64,000 nt of DNA, taken from Gammaproteobacteria bacterium (lineage in GTDB: Bacteria; Pseudomonadota; Gammaproteobacteria; Xanthomonadales; Wenzhouxiangellaceae). The notes beneath the pieces were generated by a model, which did not search any database, was not told the origin of the DNA, and was given only the letters and a program-made list of their open reading frames with translations. Below, in pieces: positions 26,325 through 31,374 of the stretch; position 1 is the stretch's first letter; the number at the start of each line of letters is the position of its first letter. Location: assembly GCA_018819105.1 (NCBI GenBank), contig JAHJQV010000005.1, positions 43,430-107,429 on the forward strand, read 5' to 3'. A program made the position numbers and the translations under genes.

Positions 26325-26358
26325 TTGATTGAACGGGTTGCACCCACAGGAAAACACA

Positions 26359-27174
26359 TTGTCACCATCGCGCATCAAACTGCACGGCTTCAACAACCTG
26401 ACCAAGTCGTTGAGCTTCAACATCTATGACATCTGCTACACCGCCAGTGAAGACAAGCGGCATGAGTATCTGGAATACATCGACGAAAGCTACAATGCCG
26501 AGCGTCTGACCCAGATCCTGGAAAACGTTGCCGAAATCATTGGTGCCAACGTGCTCAACATTGCGCGCCAGGATTACGACCCGCAAGGTGCCAGCGTGAC
26601 CATGCTGATCGCCGAGGGCCCGGTGGACGAACGCTTTGAGGACAGCGACCAGGCCAGCCCCGGTCCACTGCCGGAAACCGTGCTCGGCCATCTGGACAAG
26701 AGCCACATTACCGTGCACACTTATCCGGAAAGCCACCCGCAGGGCGGCATTTCCACCTTTCGCGCCGACATTGATGTATCCACCTGCGGCATCATCTCGC
26801 CATTGAAGGTGCTCAATTATCTGATTCATAGTTTCGAGTCAGACATCGTCACCGTGGATTACCGCGTGCGCGGTTTCACCCGCGATGTCAACGGGCGCAA
26901 GCATTTCATTGACCACAAGATCCGCTCGATTCAGGATTTCTTCGAACCGGCCACGCTGGAACGCTACCAGATGATCGACGTCAACGTGTATCAGGAAAAC
27001 ATGTTCCACACCAAGATGCTGTTGCGCGAATTCAAGCTCAACGATTATCTGTTCGGGGTGGAGGAAAAGGACCTGCGGCCGCGCCAGCGCCAGCGCATCA
27101 TTCGGCGCCTGAAAAAAGAGATGCAGGAACTGTTTTATGGCCGCAATCTGGGCCAGCCGGGCAGCCCTGCCTGA
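26359..27174 (+). CDS. speD: S-adenosylmethionine decarboxylase proenzyme
   Basis: Makes decarboxylated SAM for spermidine synthesis. About 271 residues, the E. coli-type class. The frame has no ATG near the conserved N-terminus ([13 protein letters not shown]). TTG 26359 is the best start, eight bases after AGGA; TTG 26329 and 26338 are alternatives. The proenzyme cleavage site that generates the pyruvoyl group is the Ser in [17 protein letters not shown]. Other landmarks are [14 protein letters not shown] and [17 protein letters not shown] sequence. It begins 34 bases after trpC. Confidence 0.96.
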
Positions 27175-27240
27175 CGCCCGCCATTATGCCGCCGGCGGTG
27201 GCAGCATCGGGTGCTGATCGACAACACTGGAGGTGATGAG

Positions 27241-27441
27241 ATGGACAAACAGGCTTTGCAGCAAAAACGCGATGAATTGACTCAGCGCTTGCAGGCGATC
27301 CGCCGCGATCTGCAGGGGGGGCTGGACCGTGACATGTCGGATCAGGCGATCCAGCTGGAAAACCGCGATACCCTGCTGGAAATTGCGCGTGTTACCGAGC
27401 AGGAGCTGGCTGAAATTGAGCGACAGCTGGCGGCACACTGA
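27241..27441 (+). CDS. small DksA/TraR-like coiled-coil protein without zinc finger
   Basis: 66 residues from ATG 27241 with an excellent ribosome binding site (GGAGGTGAG). The sequence is one long helix pair: QQKRDELTQRLQAIRRDLQ, a short polar turn around GGLDRDMSDQ, then AIQLENRDTLLEIARVTEQE and ELAEIERQLAAH. This matches the coiled-coil half of TraR/DksA proteins, which normally continue into a C4 zinc finger. Here the frame stops directly after the second helix, and no finger is found in the other frames downstream. It precedes the TM-STING-like gene by 48 bases. An RNA polymerase secondary-channel role is conceivable but unproven. Confidence 0.75.
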   Translation: MDKQALQQKRDELTQRLQAIRRDLQGGLDRDMSDQAIQLENRDTLLEIARVTEQELAEIERQLAAH

Positions 27442-27489: not shown

Positions 27490-28344
27490 TTGCCGCTGGT
27501 AAAGCACAAGCAGCTTGATCGGACCGCCGTGCGGGAAGCGCTGGCGGATCTGTGGCGGGACTACCACTGGCCGGTCAAGCTGGTGTTCAGTCTGATCATT
27601 CTGTCCAGTCTATGGGCCACTGCACTGGTAGGCTGGCCGGAACTGGATGCCGGCACACCGCGCTGGCTGAGAATGCTGGCCAGTGATCCGCTGCGCTATC
27701 TGTTGAGTGTACTGATTGCGTTTCTCATCGCCATCAATTTCTACATGCGCGCACGCCGCGGTATTCTTGATGGCGATGAACACTACAACGTGGCGCGGGC
27801 ACTGGCCTTTGGTTATTTCAAGAATTTTCTTGTGCCTGCCCTGCAACTGGCCCGGCGTGATGGGTGCAAGCTGCAGATTTTCAGACCGTCGAGCATGAAT
27901 GACATGCGGCATTACATCCGCCAGTTGCAGCCGCGGATTCTGGCCGCTTTGCGACCTTCATGGTTGCCGCTGGTGGAACAGCCCGCTCCGGACGGCCCAC
28001 CGCGACGCACCGTGCTTGCTCTGCAGGAACCTTCCGCCAAGGCGAATACCGCCCAATTTTTCTTTGATGCGCCCACCGCACTGTTCACCATTGTGGATTT
28101 CTATGCCGCACTCAACCGACGTCGCTGTGAGAGTGAGAAAGCGCCGCTGGACGAGGCCACCATACAGCGGTATCAGAACGGTCAGATTGACTCCTTTTTC
28201 AACCACCTGGATTATCTGTTCAATCACAGCGCAGGATTTCATGCGGTGGCGGACATCGTCACCGATGCTGGCGAGTTGAGCGAGCTGCGCGCCCATCTGG
28301 AAACCATCGATAGCGCGGCACTGGAACAGCGCTACCCTGCCTGA
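27490..28344 (+). CDS. two-TM protein resembling bacterial TM-STING
   Basis: 284 residues from TTG 27490 (no in-frame ATG upstream; GTG about 12 codons later is an alternative). A short cytosolic start is followed by TM1 (about 29-49, LVFSLIILSSLWATALVG) and TM2 (about 68-86, YLLSVLIAFLIAINFYM). The soluble part begins YNVARALAFGYFKNFLVP (99-116), resembling the first STING helix, including the G-Y-x2-N-F pattern of prokaryotic STING. FFDAPTALFTIVDFY (191-205) resembles the c-di-GMP-contact segment with an acidic residue and Thr after it. Bacterial STINGs are CBASS effectors, and TM-linked forms are known. No CD-NTase gene is nearby, so this would be an orphan. Assignment is by eye; another unknown membrane-anchored domain is possible. 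Confidence 0.55.
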   Translation: MPLVKHKQLDRTAVREALADLWRDYHWPVKLVFSLIILSSLWATALVGWPELDAGTPRWLRMLASDPLRYLLSVLIAFLIAINFYMRARRGILDGDEHYNVARALAFGYFKNFLVPALQLARRDGCKLQIFRPSSMNDMRHYIRQLQPRILAALRPSWLPLVEQPAPDGPPRRTVLALQEPSAKANTAQFFFDAPTALFTIVDFYAALNRRRCESEKAPLDEATIQRYQNGQIDSFFNHLDYLFNHSAGFHAVADIVTDAGELSELRAHLETIDSAALEQRYPA

Positions 28345-28431: not shown

Positions 28432-29451
28432 ATGAAAATCTTGTCCTGTCTGTTTCTTACCGCCGTGTTTTTTTCCGCAGCCGCGTCCGCGCAGGTGAGT
28501 TGCGGCAGTGTGTTGAGTAGCAATGCTGCACTCACCGCTGACCTCAATTGCAGCAGTGGTTTTACTGCGCTGGAAATCACTGCCGACGATGTCACCCTGG
28601 ATCTCAACGGATTTACGCTGTCCGGCAGCATCCTGCAGGGCATCAGCGTGTCCGGCAACCGCGTCACCATCCAGGGTCCGGGCAGCATCAGTGGCTTTGA
28701 TCTTGGTATACAGTCGCTGGGCACCACTCGCCTGCAGGTCAATGATGTCGACTTTGTGGCGGTTGCACAACCGCTCATCCTGACCGGTACCCGCAATGCG
28801 CTGATCCGCAGAAACCGCTTTGTTGATGCCATCATCGGGGTCGAGATAAGGGCTTTTCCTGATCCAGCCGGCAGCCTTGCTGCCAGCGGCAATCGGGTGC
28901 TTGGCAACCGTTTCAATCGCGTCGATGTGGGCGTCAATGTCTGTGGCTACACGGCAACAGATCAACGCATCGAGCGCAACCGGTTTCGGAATGTGAGCGG
29001 TTTCGCTGTACAACTGGAAACGGGTGCCCGTGATAACAGTGTGATCAGCAACCGGTTTTTCAGCATCACCGGTACCGGTGTGCGCCTGTCCAATGCCAGC
29101 AACAATCTGGTGCAGGACAACGATTTTGACAGCGGCAGGCTGGCGCTGACACTGCTGGACAACAATGGCAACGTCAGTCCGCTGTGTGTGCCGCCACCCG
29201 TGATCGGCGTGGTCACCGGAAATCGTATTGAAAACAACAATATCAACGGCTTTGATGGTGGTGTCACGGCAGGCCTCGGTGTGCTTGCGGATCCGCGTGT
29301 GATCGCCAACCGCATCGGTGGCAATGTCATCAGCAATACGGCCACCGGCCTGTTCCTGCAGACCGATGCCTGGGTCAATGATGCTACCGGCAACACCTTT
29401 TCCGGGGTGGCCGATCCGGTGATCGATCAAGGCAACGGCAACAGCTTCTGA
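28432..29451 (+). CDS. secreted right-handed parallel beta-helix protein
   Basis: 339 residues with a clear signal peptide (LFLTAVFFSAAASAQ) and GGAG ribosome binding site. The mature chain has regular short repeats of the pectate-lyase/NosD type, with Asn ladders and G-N-x-I/V turns: DVTLDLNGFTLSGS, NRVTIQGPGSISGF, NRFRNVSGFAVQL, SNRFFSITGTGVRL, NLVQDNDFDSG and NRIGGNVISNTATGL. This predicts a beta-solenoid. No catalytic Asp/Arg set is evident, so it may bind carbohydrate or be structural. It lies 87 bases after the STING-like gene. Confidence 0.82.
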   Translation: MKILSCLFLTAVFFSAAASAQVSCGSVLSSNAALTADLNCSSGFTALEITADDVTLDLNGFTLSGSILQGISVSGNRVTIQGPGSISGFDLGIQSLGTTRLQVNDVDFVAVAQPLILTGTRNALIRRNRFVDAIIGVEIRAFPDPAGSLAASGNRVLGNRFNRVDVGVNVCGYTATDQRIERNRFRNVSGFAVQLETGARDNSVISNRFFSITGTGVRLSNASNNLVQDNDFDSGRLALTLLDNNGNVSPLCVPPPVIGVVTGNRIENNNINGFDGGVTAGLGVLADPRVIANRIGGNVISNTATGLFLQTDAWVNDATGNTFSGVADPVIDQGNGNSF

Positions 29452-29478: not shown

Positions 29479-31374
29479 TCAGTCGTCCGTGGTCAGGCGC
29501 TGCACGCTCAGCGCCTGCATCAGTTCGGTGTCTGCCGCTGGCAACAGGCCACTAAGCTGATCTGCCAGCAGTTCGGCACAAAGCGGGGTGCTGCTGATGC
29601 CGCGACTGCCGTGCGCGGTGTTGAGCCAGATGCCTGGCTGCTGCGGCAGTGGGCCGAGCACGGGCAGGTAATCGGCGGCACGGCAGCGCAGGCCGCTGCG
29701 CGACGGCAGCAGGCGGATCCGGTCGCCACCCAGCGCCTGCCATTGGCTGGGCAGATGCTGTCGCAGGGTGTCCAGATTGTACTGGTCGTCGGCGTGGTTG
29801 CTGGTCAGTGAGGCAGAGCTGCCCGGTGCCGCCGATGTCAGCAGAGCGACCAGTTCATCGGCATCGGCGACGGGCTGGTAGCTGGCACCGACGCTGTGCA
29901 CACCGTCAATCGCTGGGGTCAGATAACCGGCCTGGCACTGCACCTGCTGCCATTGGCAGCTGGCCTCGGTGGCCGCCACCTCGCTGACCTGCCCGCGTAC
30001 CACCTGTAATGGCAGTTGCTGCAGGCCCGGTAGCGCCAGCGTGCTGGCACCGGTGCAAAAAACCACCGCATCGGCAGCGCAAACTTTGCCATCGGCCAGT
30101 TGCAGTTGCGGACGCTTGCCGCTCAGCTGCCACCCGGTCACTGCCTGTCGCTGCAGTGTGATCGCCGGGTGATCCAGCAGCAGTCGGCACCAGGCCTGAG
30201 GTTTCACCCAGCCGGCATGCGGCAGCAGAAACGATTGCTCATCCAGCCGCTGCAACAGCTGCGGTGGCCAGACGCCGGACTTCAGCGCTCCGCTCAGTTT
30301 GTGTTGCTGGCGCTCGTGCGCGACATGCTGCACCACGCCATCAAGTGCGGCGATGCCCAGCGCCTCGGCGCGATATTGCCGCAGCCAGCGCAGTGCGACC
30401 AGATAGCTGTGCAGGTAAAACCGGCTTTGTGGAGACCAGGTCGATGCCGGTGTGGCGTGCACGACACCGACGCGATTGCCGGAAGCGGCACTGGCTATGC
30501 CGGTGGGGTCCAGCACGGTCACCTGCCAGCCACGCTCGGCCAGTGCACGCGCCGTGCTGGCACCGGCCAGTCCGGCACCGATGACCGCAGCCAGTCCGCA
30601 TTGCCGCAGCCGCTGTTGAGGCACTGCTGCAGCTGCAGCATCCCGATAGCCACGCAGGCATTCGCGTTTGCGACCGAATCCAGCTGCCTTGTCGATGACA
30701 AAGCCGGCCTGCTGCAGGGACCGTCGTACTGATCCGGCCACCGTGTAGCTGGCCAGTGTGGTGCTGCTGCCGGAAAGGCTGACCAGCTGCTGGCACAAAC
30801 GTGCTGACCACATGGCCGGGTTGCGATCCGGGGCAAAGCCGTCCAGAAACCAGGCGTCGACCCGGCAGCGCGCATCGACCCCTTCCAGCATGTCTGCGGC
30901 ATCGCCCAGAGCAAGCGTCAGCTGGACATTTTCGGCCAGTTGCAGGCGGTGCAAGCCGGCTGCGGGTGGCGGATACTGCTGCAGCAATGCGCTGCTCAGA
31001 TCAGGGTCCAGTGCCGCCTGCCAGTGATGCAGCGCACGCTGCAGATCGGCGGGGCTGAGCGGGTGCAGTTCGGTGGAAAGCAGCTGCAGCCAGGCAGATG
31101 CCGGTGCCAGTGCGCGGAACAGGGCTGCGGCCAGCAACAGGTTCAGGCCAGTGCCAAAGCCGGTTTCGCCGATGCAGAACGCCTGACCGGGCTGCATTGC
31201 GGCAAACCGCTGTGCCAGCCGGTTGCCGTCGATGAAGACGTGGCGGCTTTCGTCCGCGCCCTGCTGCAGTGAACAGTAGTGGTCGGCAAATGTCGGTGCA
31301 TAAGGAGTGTCGTCATGCCACTCGATGCGGGCAGGCGTGATGGCTTGCCAGTGGTCGGCCAGCGCGCCGCTCAT
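29479..31374 (-). CDS. mnmC: bifunctional tRNA U34 enzyme MnmC (methyltransferase plus FAD oxidoreductase)
   Basis: 631 residues. Completes the mnm5s2U modification at the wobble base of tRNAs. The N-terminal MnmD-type methyltransferase has FCIGETGFGTGLNLLLAA (SAM site) and DAWFLDGFAPDRNPAMW. From about residue 260 the FAD-dependent oxidoreductase begins with AAVIGAGLAGASTARAL and ends with WLNTAHGSRGISSTPLCAE. Its partner mnmG, which acts upstream in the same pathway, begins at 63877. coq7 lies 25 bases upstream on the same strand. Confidence 0.95.
   Translation of the reverse strand: MSGALADHWQAITPARIEWHDDTPYAPTFADHYCSLQQGADESRHVFIDGNRLAQRFAAMQPGQAFCIGETGFGTGLNLLLAAALFRALAPASAWLQLLSTELHPLSPADLQRALHHWQAALDPDLSSALLQQYPPPAAGLHRLQLAENVQLTLALGDAADMLEGVDARCRVDAWFLDGFAPDRNPAMWSARLCQQLVSLSGSSTTLASYTVAGSVRRSLQQAGFVIDKAAGFGRKRECLRGYRDAAAAAVPQQRLRQCGLAAVIGAGLAGASTARALAERGWQVTVLDPTGIASAASGNRVGVVHATPASTWSPQSRFYLHSYLVALRWLRQYRAEALGIAALDGVVQHVAHERQQHKLSGALKSGVWPPQLLQRLDEQSFLLPHAGWVKPQAWCRLLLDHPAITLQRQAVTGWQLSGKRPQLQLADGKVCAADAVVFCTGASTLALPGLQQLPLQVVRGQVSEVAATEASCQWQQVQCQAGYLTPAIDGVHSVGASYQPVADADELVALLTSAAPGSSASLTSNHADDQYNLDTLRQHLPSQWQALGGDRIRLLPSRSGLRCRAADYLPVLGPLPQQPGIWLNTAHGSRGISSTPLCAELLADQLSGLLPAADTELMQALSVQRLTTDD

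Follow-up and report, generated by a model that had tools for sequence, protein, structure and literature searches.

A putative orphan branch of transmembrane STING with a changed lid in a gammaproteobacterial genome

The 64,000-nucleotide stretch of DNA analysed here (the window, from contig JAHJQV010000005.1 of a gammaproteobacterium of the Wenzhouxiangellaceae) encodes a protein with a STING fold, two hydrophobic helices and conserved pocket residues, and no PADLOC cyclase lies near its gene. Its sequence points to a new orphan branch of transmembrane (TM) STING proteins in which the lid over the ligand has changed. Bacterial STINGs are described, in the portion of PMC12424679 consulted, as effectors encoded beside their own cyclase, and a literature search returned no description of orphan bacterial STINGs of Proteobacteria in the partial texts that it covered. 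The protein likely responds to a cyclic dinucleotide supplied neither by a neighbouring gene nor by the housekeeping c-di-GMP system, since its gene is in no recognisable antiphage operon and the search of the window's genome turned up no c-di-GMP-making domain whose active-site motif is intact.

Table 1. Positions in the window of the STING gene, its predicted parts and its neighbours
Feature	Position	Strand	Basis or context
STING gene	27490..28344	+	orphan two-TM STING protein, 284 aa
Predicted TM helix 1, residues 27-48	27568..27633	+	helix in the model, hydropathy peak
Predicted TM helix 2, residues 66-89	27685..27756	+	helix in the model, hydropathy peak
Conserved linker RARRGILDGDEH, residues 87-98, from helix 2 to the STING domain	27748..27783	+	alignments of 33 and 71 sequences
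STING cyclic-dinucleotide-binding domain, residues 99-281	27784..28332	+	family profile, predicted structure
F113, equivalent of the base-stacking F92 of FsSTING	27826..27828	+	sequence profiles
Lid P171-R172-R173; R173 = FsSTING R153, P171 in place of R151	28000..28008	+	sequence profiles
D193-x-P-T196; D193 = FsSTING D169	28066..28077	+	sequence profiles
speD, S-adenosylmethionine decarboxylase	26329..27174	+	neighbour of the STING gene
76-aa protein, DksA-like N-terminal coiled coil only	27211..27441	+	separates speD from STING in the two genomes of this genus
Beta-helix protein	28432..29451	+	neighbour of the STING gene

The PF20300 profile recognises residues 102-240 of the protein at 30.9 bits, above its cut-off of 27.1, and in the predicted structure, a single-chain model like all those made here, the soluble domain adopts the STING fold. 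Two N-terminal TM helices ahead of a STING domain had been claimed in an earlier note from the letters of the DNA; the profile, the model and hydropathy all bear this out, as the structure analysis does for the fold, with membrane insertion being predicted. A profile-profile alignment with the Cap13 TM-STING family spans both the TM part and the STING domain (prob 97.7, E 1.5e-12). Basic residues follow the second helix, which suggests that the STING domain would lie on the cytosolic side. The gene shows signs of constraint: dN/dS is about 0.12 (0.26/2.22) when it is compared with the copy of the same genus and 0.19 (0.31/1.58) when it is compared with that of genome G126, dS being near saturation. 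No PADLOC model matches the protein, NCBIfam offers no name for it, and a promoter and terminator scan gave signals at or below the level of shuffled sequence. A chance reading frame or artefact is ruled out by the family match, the fold and the conservation.

According to the excerpts of PMC8748872, FsSTING contacts its ligand through F92, R151, R153 and D169, and the lids of bacterial STINGs fall into class I, R-x-(Y/F), and class II, R-x-R. These four residues occur at the same numbers in P0066, which carries the UniRef name CD-NTase-associated protein 13, and do not vary among 29 aligned Cap13-like proteins out of the 95 that the search yielded; among all 95, the lid reads R-A-R-D in 88 and R-S-R-D in one, with six outside the searched pattern. 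Profile alignment carries F92, R153 and D169 onto F113, R173 and D193 of the window protein and sets R151 on or beside P171; by these sequence profiles F113 and D193 supply the stacking aromatic and the guanine-contacting Asp expected of a PF20300 pocket. In a set of 71 family members (the window protein, P0001-P0065 and five genome copies, some of them near-copies of one another), R173 is present in 71/71, F113 and D193 each in 69/71, and the T196 position holds Thr in 66 and Ser in four. Two positions ahead of R173, 43 sequences have Pro, 24 Leu, three Val and one Ile, and none has Arg. The second lid Arg is thus kept throughout and the first replaced, in a register taken from profiles rather than from a solved structure, since the lid region of the model has a block pLDDT of only 56-67. 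With the other ligand residues conserved and the first lid Arg replaced, the pocket appears to be kept, yet the lid probably fits neither described class of bacterial STING. The departure from both classes was missed in the earlier note. Excerpts of PMC10739871 indicate that bacterial STINGs without both lid motifs are already known, their ligand not being known, and that some STING genes are linked to DisA.

Six carrier genomes were compared: that of the window (G000), G007 (locus L005) of the same genus, G126 (L006), Hydrogenophaga NFH-34 (G764, L007), G928 and G1119. In G007 the order speD, DksA-like gene, STING and the counterpart of window ORF 29479-31374, presumably mnmC, is the same as in the window; the beta-helix protein has no match in L005, where that counterpart adjoins the STING gene, and the 76-aa DksA-like protein has none in L006 or L007. 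As read from translations, the STING gene of G126 sits between an apparent ABC-F type ATPase gene and a sigma-factor-like gene. The remaining three carry it near dcd, among neighbours common to all three. In two of these, the Burkholderiales genomes G764 and G928, STING comes immediately after dcd (dCTP deaminase) and is read from the same strand (L035:9101-10715, L037:9047-10736), as if both belonged to one transcript. In G1119 a gap of about 1.4 kb separates dcd from the STING match, which is split over two frames (L036:9095-10222, on a 3.6-Mb contig), either through a broken gene or through a sequencing error.

No PADLOC cyclase was found near the six STING copies (window, L005, L006, L035, L036 and L037) among ORFs of at least 200 aa, with shorter ORFs and those running off the locus ends scanned in part only. 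The scans took in 50 window ORFs, 58 ORFs of L006, L035, L036 and L037 (70 picked minus 12 with strand errors) and then 128 further ORFs of at least 200 aa (32 in the window, 82 in those four loci and 14 in L005). No cyclase appears among the 11 PADLOC families matching window ORFs at E <= 1e-5, among the 14 families matching the four loci at E <= 1e-16, or among the best 25 of the 61 that match there at E <= 1e-5, and the 128 further ORFs match no PADLOC family at E <= 1e-10. The matches near the STING copies are generic by name (helicase-like, AAA, MotB, PolA and others). By these scans, none of the six copies lies in an operon with a CD-NTase, as a CBASS effector of the Cap13 type would, and the claim that the window gene is an orphan with no neighbouring cyclase is upheld.

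The family is scattered in its occurrence and deeply divided. A tree of 59 proteins (the window protein, 34 of its family and 24 Cap13-like), chosen from the window protein and 160 fetched sequences, splits the two families by a single branch with 100/100 support; inside the window family, the window's branch stands apart from one with Ottowia (P0047) and Hydrogenophaga (P0059). P0032, labelled as a Propionibacteriaceae MAG, groups with the window's branch, so that its bin label may be wrong. Another relative, P0056 (448 aa), joins a Cupin_3 domain (PF05899) to its STING domain, and its sequence suggests that the fusion may add a further sensor or regulatory part. STING was found in 2/43 genomes of the window's family, a single genus accounting for both, in 3/398 of the order and in 3/399 of the family of Hydrogenophaga NFH-34. 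Across the class, PF20300 matched 2/369 genomes at E <= 1e-3 and only the window's genome above the cut-off, the other match (G648) being partial, below the cut-off and interrupted by an internal stop; the G126 copy did not reach E 1e-5 against this profile. The window family had no match in plasmid records, phage records or viral contigs, and an FsSTING fragment had none in plasmids or viral contigs. As the speD, DksA-like and STING genes are also kept together in the same-genus genome, the STING gene is chromosomal. Cargo of a mobile element was rejected on the zero matches in plasmids, phages and viral contigs.

Most of the carriers appear poor in c-di-GMP synthesis genes. In the window's genome, which is 98.68% complete, a single GGDEF match turned up at E <= 1e-3, a REC-PAS-GGDEF-EAL protein that we take to be of the FimX type and that has no GGDEF motif in its active-site stretch. 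Its EAL domain match is kept, so c-di-GMP might still matter in this genome. The motif is likewise missing from the one match in G126, from the one protoglobin-DosC-type protein of G764 and from both matches in G928, and G1119 has no GGDEF match. Only G007 bears an intact motif (GGEEF, in a PAS-GGDEF protein), beside a FimX-like protein; no intact motif was found in the other five of the six carriers. Judged from these genes, the window's genome and the four other carriers without an intact motif likely make little or no c-di-GMP of their own.

The GGDEF background was counted for the window's family, the family of G126 and the genus of G764. In the first, GGDEF matches number 12 to 51 (median 32) in 34 of the 43 genomes, all of them without STING, whereas STING occurs in 2 of the 9 genomes with 0 to 2 matches (Fisher p 0.04, uncorrected for kinship and with both carriers in one genus). 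In the family of G126, 38/39 genomes have at most one match, mostly a protein some 680-740 aa long, as though the family as a whole had lost c-di-GMP synthesis, and STING was found in G126 only (its 39 genomes presumably fall among the order's 398). In the genus of G764 a strong match occurs in 47/60 genomes and none in 13/60. The link between STING and GGDEF poverty is thus weak; the counts agree with, but do not prove, a mutual exclusion of STING and a housekeeping c-di-GMP pool. Such an incompatibility is plausible from the available parts of the literature, in which bacterial STINGs carried c-di-GMP that had most likely come from the expression host (PMC8748872) and a TIR-STING toxicity assay is described.

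On this background a housekeeping role as a membrane regulator that senses the c-di-GMP pool of its own cell, in line with the earlier note, becomes doubtful. This proposal draws on the core-gene surroundings with genus-level synteny, on the conserved F113, R173 and D193, on the intact motif in G007 and on the FimX-like, EAL-bearing protein of the window's genome, but it is very improbable given five of six carriers without a motif-bearing GGDEF match and a scattered presence in family and order, and it was rejected as the main explanation. The same note had offered an unlinked cyclase as the other possible source, and the window's genome does hold one SMODS CD-NTase with an AGS_C domain, on contig 45. 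This gene lies directly before its own SLATT_4/2TM effector gene in a two-gene CBASS (L024:7080-18792); a Schlafen AlbA_2 gene follows, and the whole lies between apparent hsdM/hsdS and hsdR genes, so that the region, judged from translations, looks like a type I restriction-modification island. That STING would be a trans effector of this CD-NTase is rather unlikely, even with two further SMODS matches in G764, as the enzyme already has an adjoining effector, and as the SMODS model, whose sensitivity to STING-linked CD-NTases is without a reference case, found no match in the carriers G007 (88% complete) and G126 (98% complete) among the four genomes searched (G000, G007, G126 and G764). Of the earlier reading, the two-helix STING and its orphan state have held, while the cell's own c-di-GMP as its signal has not fared well.

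Two further readings were weighed. A non-immune membrane protein that kept the STING fold for another ligand or signal, the loss of the first lid Arg marking the change, is unlikely, though several points speak for it: the residue invariant as R151 in 29 Cap13 proteins is here Pro, Leu, Val or Ile, neither a PADLOC cyclase nor a clear defence operon lies near STING, and dcd immediately precedes the gene in two Burkholderiales genomes. This reading sits poorly with the retention of F113, R173, D193 and T196 across two deeply split branches, as would be expected if cyclic dinucleotides were still bound. That the gene is a decaying remnant of a lost CBASS operon could account for the missing cyclase, the scattered distribution and the split frame in G1119; the low dN/dS, the lack of internal stops in the matches of the other five carriers and an R173 invariant in 71 sequences make decay extremely improbable.

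The preferred reading, to which we give about an even chance, is that of a free-standing TM-STING working like the TM-STING effectors of CBASS and triggered in trans by a cyclic dinucleotide that no neighbour supplies. F113, R173 and D193 would hold a cyclic dinucleotide that contains guanine, with the cytosolic STING domain dimerising around it, ligand-bound dimers would oligomerise, and the clustered helix pairs would permeabilise or de-energise the inner membrane so that growth stops. The ligand would come from outside the neighbouring genes, and in most carriers no canonical diguanylate cyclase was found to make it. We infer the ligand, its source, the oligomerisation, the membrane damage and any defence role from these comparisons; as the role of the TM part is called unclear in excerpts on Cap13 (PMC12421889) and on bacterial TM-STINGs (PMC10732462), harm to the membrane is inferred even for the known Cap13 family. 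It is conceivable, though quite unlikely, that a proteobacterial lineage which gave up c-di-GMP carries a free-standing membrane STING that raises the alarm when cyclic dinucleotides of foreign origin arrive with phages, mobile elements or neighbours; if true, bacteria would use STING as animals do, with bacterial c-di-GMP sensed as non-self. A stand-alone chromosomal branch with an altered lid would free bacterial STING from its tie to CBASS, as happened in animals, and makes two questions testable, namely whether housekeeping use of c-di-GMP excludes STING, and what feeds a STING that has no partner.

Among known systems, the closest likeness is to Cap13, the TM-STING of Flavobacteriaceae (FsSTING, 6wt4), which also has two N-terminal hydrophobic helices before a STING domain; the equivalents of F92, R153 and D169 are kept and the profiles align over both parts. 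The two families nevertheless form separate clades (100/100), the window protein has a longer N-terminus and linker, its gene adjoins no CD-NTase, and where the Cap13 lid is mostly R-A-R the window family keeps the second Arg with Pro, Leu, Val or Ile as the first residue. The TIR-STINGs (Cap12) of CBASS, such as SfSTING, differ in that the window protein has no TIR domain, its lid is not R-x-(Y/F) and its gene is not in a CD-NTase operon. Compared with animal STING, the window protein has two helices instead of four and is without a tail like that of vertebrate STING, and the bacterial and eukaryotic TM architectures of STING arose independently, according to the excerpt of PMC10732462.
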